Positions 22,376 through 23,469 of a stretch of 64,000 bases of DNA are shown piece by piece. A program made the position numbers and the translations under genes. Every line of letters begins with the position of its first letter. The first letter of the stretch is position 1. The notes below the pieces were generated by a model that was not told the DNA's origin, searched no databases, and saw only the letters and a program-made list of their open reading frames with translations. The DNA is from Lactobacillus sp. (GTDB lineage Bacteria > Bacillota > Bacilli > Lactobacillales > Lactobacillaceae), in contig JAKVKU010000003.1 in the NCBI GenBank assembly GCA_022484695.1, positions 62,001 to 126,000 of the forward strand, written 5' to 3'.

Positions 22376-22828
22376 TTAGACACAGGCACGTAGTTCATGG
22401 ACCCCCCAAACCGCAGAAGCCAACAATGTCTTAGCGCGCAGCCGACGCACGGCTTGTTTTTCAACAACCGTGGTACAAACTGAATTGGTCGTGGCGTCAA
22501 TGGCATTTGTACAGGCTTGCAGGGTTTGTTGATACTTTTCTAATGCTTGCAAAATATTATCATGTAGGTTGGTGAAACGATTAGGGACTGGTACGTCCAC
22601 TAACTGTTGGCAGATTTTTTTGTAACGTTGCTGATTTTTAGCAAAATAAGCTTTTAAATCTTTCAAATTTTCGGTGGCTAAACAATTACGATCGTTGATA
22701 TTTAGAATCGTTTCAGAGTATTCATTAAAAACATCATCCAATGTAATTAGTTTTGACATTTGCCGTTTTAAGAATTCTAAGTACATACTAGTATATTGAA
22801 AATCGCTCGTATTCATGACAACACACAT
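22376..22828 (-). CDS. Hypothetical helical protein, 150 residues
   Basis: I do not recognise this protein. It is predicted by eye to be mostly helical, with long amphipathic runs such as YSETILNINDRNCLATENLK and ILQALEKYQQTLQACTNAID, several cysteines, and a basic C-terminal half with KQAVRRLRAKTLL. AAGGAG lies 10 bases before the ATG at 22828. A good promoter lies just upstream. It looks like a small regulatory or adaptor protein, but that is a guess from its composition. It leads the two-gene unit with the 137-residue protein. Confidence 0.65.
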   Translation of the reverse strand: MCVVMNTSDFQYTSMYLEFLKRQMSKLITLDDVFNEYSETILNINDRNCLATENLKDLKAYFAKNQQRYKKICQQLVDVPVPNRFTNLHDNILQALEKYQQTLQACTNAIDATTNSVCTTVVEKQAVRRLRAKTLLASAVWGVHELRACV

Positions 22829-22978: not shown

Positions 22979-23007
22979 TTGACGCCAATTTAATCCTATG
23001 CTATTAT
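22979..23007 (+). promoter_or_regulatory. Near-consensus promoter of a tiny transcription unit
   Basis: TTGACG (22979-22984), exactly 17 bases, then TATTAT (23002-23007). Transcription would start near 23014, immediately before a very strong Shine-Dalgarno sequence. Confidence 0.78.
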
Positions 23008-23033
23008 GCACTTAGAAAAGGAGGTGATGTCTT

Positions 23034-23087
23034 TTGACAAGTGCGATATTGTCGAAGGCATTAGCTCCCGATGGTGCTGAAAAGTAA
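23034..23087 (+). CDS. Candidate 17-residue peptide (TTG start) in a structured small RNA
   Basis: The transcript has AAAAGGAGGTGAT (23016-23028), almost the full complement of the 16S rRNA 3' end, 5 bases before a TTG. The frame then reads MTSAILSKALAPDGAEK and stops with TAA. The peptide is not strongly hydrophobic and matches no family I know. The 3' half of the frame can also fold: GCATTAG (23058-23064) pairs with CTGATGC (23098-23104), and GGTG (23073-23076) pairs with CACC (23089-23092). Promoter, ribosome binding site and terminator are all present within 170 bases, so the unit is likely transcribed. Whether the product is the peptide, the RNA, or both cannot be decided here. Confidence 0.45.
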   Translation: MTSAILSKALAPDGAEK

Positions 23088-23115
23088 CCACCGGTGACTG
23101 ATGCCAAAACAAACA

Positions 23116-23145
23116 AGCTACCTAAATATTTTAGGTAGCTTTTTA
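23116..23145 (+). terminator. Terminator of the tiny transcription unit
   Basis: AGCTACCTAAA pairs with TTTAGGTAGCT followed by TTTT(A)TTTTG. It closes the unit that starts near 23014. Confidence 0.88.
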
Positions 23146-23204
23146 TTTTGTTTATTTTGTGTTATTAAATGACGCCTGCGCCTTCTAAAATTGAAAGCAT
23201 CCGA

Positions 23205-23384
23205 CTAATGGTGCTTGGCTGGCTGCGTGTAATCTTTTTTCAATCGATCAAAAGCCGCTTGGACACTTTTTAAATGATTGCTATCATGTCGAACTGAATT
23301 CATCAGACTAGAAAAGTCATGATCTTTGGTGCCGTTTAGTAAATCATTTTCGTTTTTCGTTTTTCGTTTTTTTGAAAAAAGCAT
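23205..23384 (-). CDS. Hypothetical small charged protein
   Basis: A 59-residue protein I do not recognise, beginning MLFSKKRKTKNENDLLNGT and then rich in Lys, Asp, His and Ser with no hydrophobic segment. The ATG at 23384 is preferred over an in-frame GTG 9 bases upstream because AGAGGTG sits at the right distance from the ATG. It lies between the tiny transcription unit and the divergent ybaK gene. Codon use and the ribosome binding site suggest it is real, but there is no supporting family match. Confidence 0.5.
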   Translation of the reverse strand: MLFSKKRKTKNENDLLNGTKDHDFSSLMNSVRHDSNHLKSVQAAFDRLKKDYTQPAKHH

Positions 23385-23469
23385 TGAACACACCTCTTTA
23401 TGGCATTTATTATACCTTTATTTTTTTATAATTCCAAAATTTGTTATATTATAGTCATGGAGGTTGAAC

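Follow-up and report, generated by a model that had tools for sequence, protein, structure and literature searches.

Leader-peptide attenuators of the ermC, ermB, cat and trp type place a short reading frame behind a strong Shine-Dalgarno (SD) sequence and combine it with mutually exclusive helices that can be reset by the ribosome. The ermB system is a leader-peptide attenuator in which a short frame accompanies such exclusive helices (PMC8274638). In Bacillus subtilis, SR1 inhibits translation of the ahrC mRNA and SR1P has been reported to interact with GapA (PMC8501984). The extended SD initiation sites of Firmicutes, described in Staphylococcus aureus, are a general feature of many mRNAs (PMC13009471), and the consensus SD of L. 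plantarum is AGAAAGGAGGTGATC (PMC3447810).

In the window, the 64,000-nt stretch of Lactobacillus sp. DNA that was analysed here, a promoter, a near-perfect SD, a TTG-started 17-codon frame, pairing of the frame with downstream bases and a terminator had been predicted at positions 22979-23145, and all of these features are present (Table 1). The claimed pairing of the GCATTAG/CTGATGC type and of GGTG with CACC was likewise recovered: GGCATTAG is complementary to CTGATGCC, and GGTG to CACC. The fold derived from this pairing was nevertheless incomplete, in that a competing state, in which a second helix closes the SD, had been overlooked. The region 23013-23150 folds at -49.6 kcal/mol (z -7.5 relative to 200 shuffles, terminator included), and in this fold the SD region is engaged by the central part of the frame; the pairing of the frame with bases past the stop codon is the competing fold. 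The 12-mer AAAGGAGGTGAT within the SD occurs once in the 3.34-Mb draft genome, in this element, and AGGAGGTGAT occurs four times in the same genome; these counts cover the contigs of the draft, and 16S genes did not appear among the matches.

Table 1. Positions of the element's features and of the flanking frames in the window.
Feature	Positions	Strand	Basis or remark
150-aa gene, no Pfam match	22376..22828	-	adjoins the element
Promoter, sigma-A type, TTGACG-17-TATTAT, extended -10	22979..23007	+	sequence
-35 TTGACG, followed by 17-nt spacer	22979..22984	+	
-10 TATTAT with extended TG	23002..23007	+	
SD AAAAGGAGGTGAT, contains 12-mer AAAGGAGGTGAT	23016..23028	+	sequence
GGAG, pairs with CUCC when SD is closed	23020..23023	+	folding
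Segment 1 UGAUGUCUU, overlaps SD, pairs with segment 2	23025..23033	+	folding and covariation
17-codon frame MTSAILSKALAPDGAEK, TTG to TAA	23034..23087	+	sequence; frame kept in 73 distinct copies
Start codon TTG	23034..23036	+	
Segment 2 AAGGCAUUAG, within frame (K-A-L-A codons), pairs with segment 1 or segment 3	23055..23064	+	folding and covariation
SD-closing helix	23025..23033 : 23055..23063	+	folding
GGCATTAG, complementary to CTGATGCC	23057..23064	+	
CUCC, partner of GGAG	23065..23068	+	folding
Stop codon TAA	23085..23087	+	
Segment 3 CUGAUGCC, pairs with segment 2, frees SD	23098..23105	+	sequence, folding, covariation
CTGATGCC	23098..23105	+	
Intrinsic terminator, 12-bp stem and T tail	23115..23145	+	sequence
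Terminator stem, 12 bp, followed by T's	23115..23141	+	
62-aa frame, no Pfam match	23205..23393	-	other side of the element

In order to define the distribution of the element, a covariance model was built on the SD hairpin and used to search 397 Lactobacillaceae genomes at a threshold of E≤1.6e-6. It matched 84 of them, with a single copy in each and 12 coded genera represented. A similarity search at the DNA level detected the element in all four genomes examined from the source genus, for which records of identical sequence are named Agrilactobacillus, and across Lactobacillaceae in 27 of 301 genomes. Both the frame and the stem, the conservation of which in close relatives had been proposed as a check, are kept according to the similarity and covariance searches of this family. 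Named hosts are Agri-, Lenti-, Lactiplanti-, Furfuri-, Secundi-, Schleiferi-, Pauci-, Lapidi- and Loigolactobacillus together with two Lacticaseibacillus species, and industrially central species, L. plantarum included, are among the carriers. About 20 genomes of the group coded g15 scored near 1e-3 or weaker, and most of those inspected hold true divergent copies; weak matches within the family in g18, g22, g2, g32 and g37 turned out on inspection to be ordinary gene starts or unrelated sequences. An order-wide covariance search yielded no convincing homologue outside Lactobacillaceae among the copies inspected. The element was not found in plasmid or phage collections, pattern matches in viral contigs being coincidental and none of them carrying the frame. 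A mobile element was rejected on the grounds of this absence and of the single copy per genome.

The comparative set comprised 73 distinct copies, which share one plan: a UUG start, 16–19 codons, a predicted transcript of about 130 nt (median 130) and usually a strong terminator. The predicted terminator hairpin lies below -8 kcal/mol in 71 of the 73, with stems that vary among genera. The terminator loops of the element and its relatives mostly start with AAAU despite these genus-specific stems. Half of 70 upstream regions in relatives score at least 9 as promoters, compared with 6% of control stretches, and the -10 mostly lies 12–18 nt upstream of the SD. The original failure to place the element in a known family agrees with searches of Rfam and NCBIfam: Rfam covariance models gave nothing relevant at the gathering score or at E≤1, and three peptides padded to at least 20 aa matched nothing in NCBIfam, albeit this is a weak test. 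No description of the element was found in the open-access literature. Units this small escape genome annotation, and this element of about 130 bases is unreported in the families or papers searched and conserved in at least 12 genera of lactic acid bacteria. The element exceeds chance expectation because of the z-score of its fold, the single occurrence of AAAGGAGGTGAT in the genome and its recurrence in 12 genera.

The key feature of the element, missed in the original prediction, is a three-segment SD switch. The family consensus is UGAUGYYUU for segment 1, which overlaps the SD, AARRCAUYAG (in simpler form AAGGCAUYAG) for segment 2, inside the frame, and (A)CUGAUGC for segment 3. Segments 1 and 3 are alike and each is complementary to segment 2, which, as modelled, has two mutually exclusive partners: segment 1, in which case the SD is hidden, and segment 3, located at the stop codon or beyond it, in which case the SD is exposed. 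The three segments covary: position 2 is U/A/U in 32 copies and C/G/C in 15, and position 4 is G/C/G in 46 copies and A/U/A in two. A smaller alignment shows pairing of the SD helix in 100% of cells, compared with 23–54% when slid, and just one pair is altered on both sides; the argument from covariation therefore leans mainly on the three-segment counts.

In every one of the 73 copies, both helices, 1:2 and 2:3, exceed in stability the average of 100 synonymous recodings of the same peptide (mean z -2.6 and -2.8, respectively), and the full-transcript folds lie near balance, 38 copies favouring 2:3 and 35 favouring 1:2. In silico, SD openness without segment 3 is 0.16, compared with 0.36 for synonymous recodings, and segment 3 adds 0.19 to it, compared with 0.02 for a scrambled segment 3. 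Recoding of the frame thus weakens closure of the SD and scrambling of the 3' segment abolishes its opening (Wilcoxon p about 4e-10 and 5e-8, respectively, uncorrected for sequence relatedness). When the stop region was masked, which amounts to setting its bases unpaired and nothing more, the SD closed in 54 of the 73 copies and opened in none; in the window copy, masking of the bases under a terminating ribosome lowered SD openness from 0.58 to 0.11. Segment 3 begins -6 to +15 nt from the stop codon in 56 of the 73 copies. In some copies, from Furfurilactobacillus and Schleiferilactobacillus, it lies about 17–28 nt past the stop, out of reach of a terminating ribosome, and the divergent g15 copies fit the fixed 1:2 register imperfectly, with segment 3 located inconsistently by a duplex search. 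An RNA thermometer was rejected, the SD hardly opening on warming in silico (mean openness 0.34 at 20 C and 0.39 at 45 C).

The 73 copies encode 52 different peptides of 16–19 aa, and a TTG start was seen in all copies inspected; TTG was required by the filter that defined the 73 copies, and it is also found in the covariance-model copies, on which it was not forced. Insertions and deletions ahead of codon 8 are multiples of three, those inside the frame before segment 2 being whole codons, and changes in SD-start spacing are absorbed upstream of the start with the UUG retained. Judging from these sequences, the frame is probably translated. In close pairs, segment 2 codons show 10 synonymous and 3 non-synonymous changes, with 3 synonymous expected; this excess is not clean coding evidence, because pairing constrains the same codons. 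The C-terminal codons show 19 synonymous and 25 non-synonymous changes (10.7 and 33.3 expected), and codons 2–6, with 9 and 42 (11.7 and 39.3 expected), look neutral. We conclude that the identity of the N-terminal residues probably hardly matters, and a sequence-specific function of the peptide appears doubtful because codons 2–6 are without purifying selection. A functional micropeptide might still be the point of the unit, with the RNA folds merely setting its level of expression: there is an L-K-[AV]-S/I-A core and the weak C-terminal constraint just described, and LKASASVNNGENY of g3 aligns residue by residue with LKVIASAENGND of g15 despite differing RNA. However, the neutral evolution of codons 2–6 and the variation of C-termini among genera make this improbable.

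Beyond the 62-aa frame that flanks the element in the window lie a ybaK-like tRNA-editing gene (PF04073) and then a DUF960 gene. The adjoining 150-aa gene is conserved beside the element in Agri- and Schleiferilactobacillus; the 62-aa frame is conserved in Agrilactobacillus, and a similar small frame occurs near the element in Loigolactobacillus. Neighbours vary by genus and include a nucleoside transporter and a hydrolase or LysR gene, ybaK, an MFS transporter and others (named by eye from sequence, Pfam matches excepted). These surroundings bear on the reading of the element as a classical leader-peptide attenuator governing read-through into the next gene, to which its three-segment logic, its terminator and a short frame overlapping mutually exclusive helices would lend themselves, as would the fact that several genera have a co-directional next gene, which in Agri-, Lapidi- and Schleiferilactobacillus is ybaK-like. 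The element does not, however, lie upstream of a particular controlled gene: the next gene changes from genus to genus and several species have it on the opposite strand, L. plajomi has the element in inverted orientation between the two genes that also flank it in its relatives, and no antiterminator using a terminator arm was seen. We regard such an attenuator as highly improbable. A cis-regulatory role as a general function appears unlikely because of the differing neighbours, their frequently opposite strand and the inversion in L. plajomi, and a cis leader was rejected as the general function on these grounds. The original suggestion, which ranged from a regulatory sRNA to a leader or a small peptide, is partly supported, with a leader of the next gene disfavoured by the neighbourhoods.

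On the anatomy, conservation, covariation and near-balanced folds established above in silico, we favour, with moderate confidence, the reading of the element as a free-standing small mRNA of about 130 nt, possibly also an sRNA, the translation of which would be gated by a ribosome-resettable SD switch. In this unit a hyper-strong SD and a UUG start would direct synthesis of the 16–19-aa peptide, and we infer its transcription, its translation, a role of its product and a ribosome-driven cycle of the following kind. While transcription is under way, 1:2 would form first and the SD would be shut unless a ribosome had already loaded; once segment 3 emerged, 2:3 could displace 1:2 and open the SD. 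A ribosome at the stop codon would cover segment 3, having just cleared segment 2, so that 1:2 could re-form behind it and block the next initiation. The cycle would be self-limiting, each ribosome that reached the stop letting the SD hairpin re-form, and the output of peptide or the availability of the RNA would follow the rates of initiation and termination. Since a ribosome at the element's own stop would close the element's own SD, the unit, free-standing yet of leader type, could report initiation or termination capacity in trans; we consider it possible, albeit rather unlikely, that it is such an autonomous sensor of ribosome state, with its own initiation and termination as sole built-in readout and the peptide or RNA as messenger.

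A trans-acting, dual-function sRNA would instead use base pairing to regulate other mRNAs or to bind ribosomes, with the frame being secondary or controlling the availability of the RNA. As expected of dual-function sRNAs, the element is, as far as its sequence indicates, free-standing with its own promoter and terminator, and its length of about 130 nt, its invariant RNA segments and its weakly constrained N-terminal codons are consistent with such a role. Its most conserved exposed stretch is, however, the SD and not a C-rich anti-SD seed, and the frame with its UUG is retained in all copies inspected; we assign this alternative a minor, albeit appreciable, probability.

The small mRNA with a gated SD that we favour shares features with each of the systems introduced above. 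It resembles B. subtilis SR1/SR1P as an RNA of a Gram-positive host that stands free, carries its own terminator and contains a small frame (PMC8501984), but differs in that the SD of its own frame takes part in a bistable switch; no kinship was found, the two being compared by description. With the extended SD sites of S. aureus it shares long SD complementarity near the start codon and UUG starts, whereas its 12-nt match is unique in the 3.34-Mb draft genome and sits in the switch. Like the ermC, ermB, cat and trp attenuators, it has exclusive helices that overlap a short frame preceded by a strong SD. What is hidden in those attenuators is the SD or terminator of a downstream gene, whereas here the SD hidden is that of the short frame itself, and the element terminates at once, without a gene consistently following. 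It would clearly exemplify an attenuator architecture that is uncoupled from any target gene.
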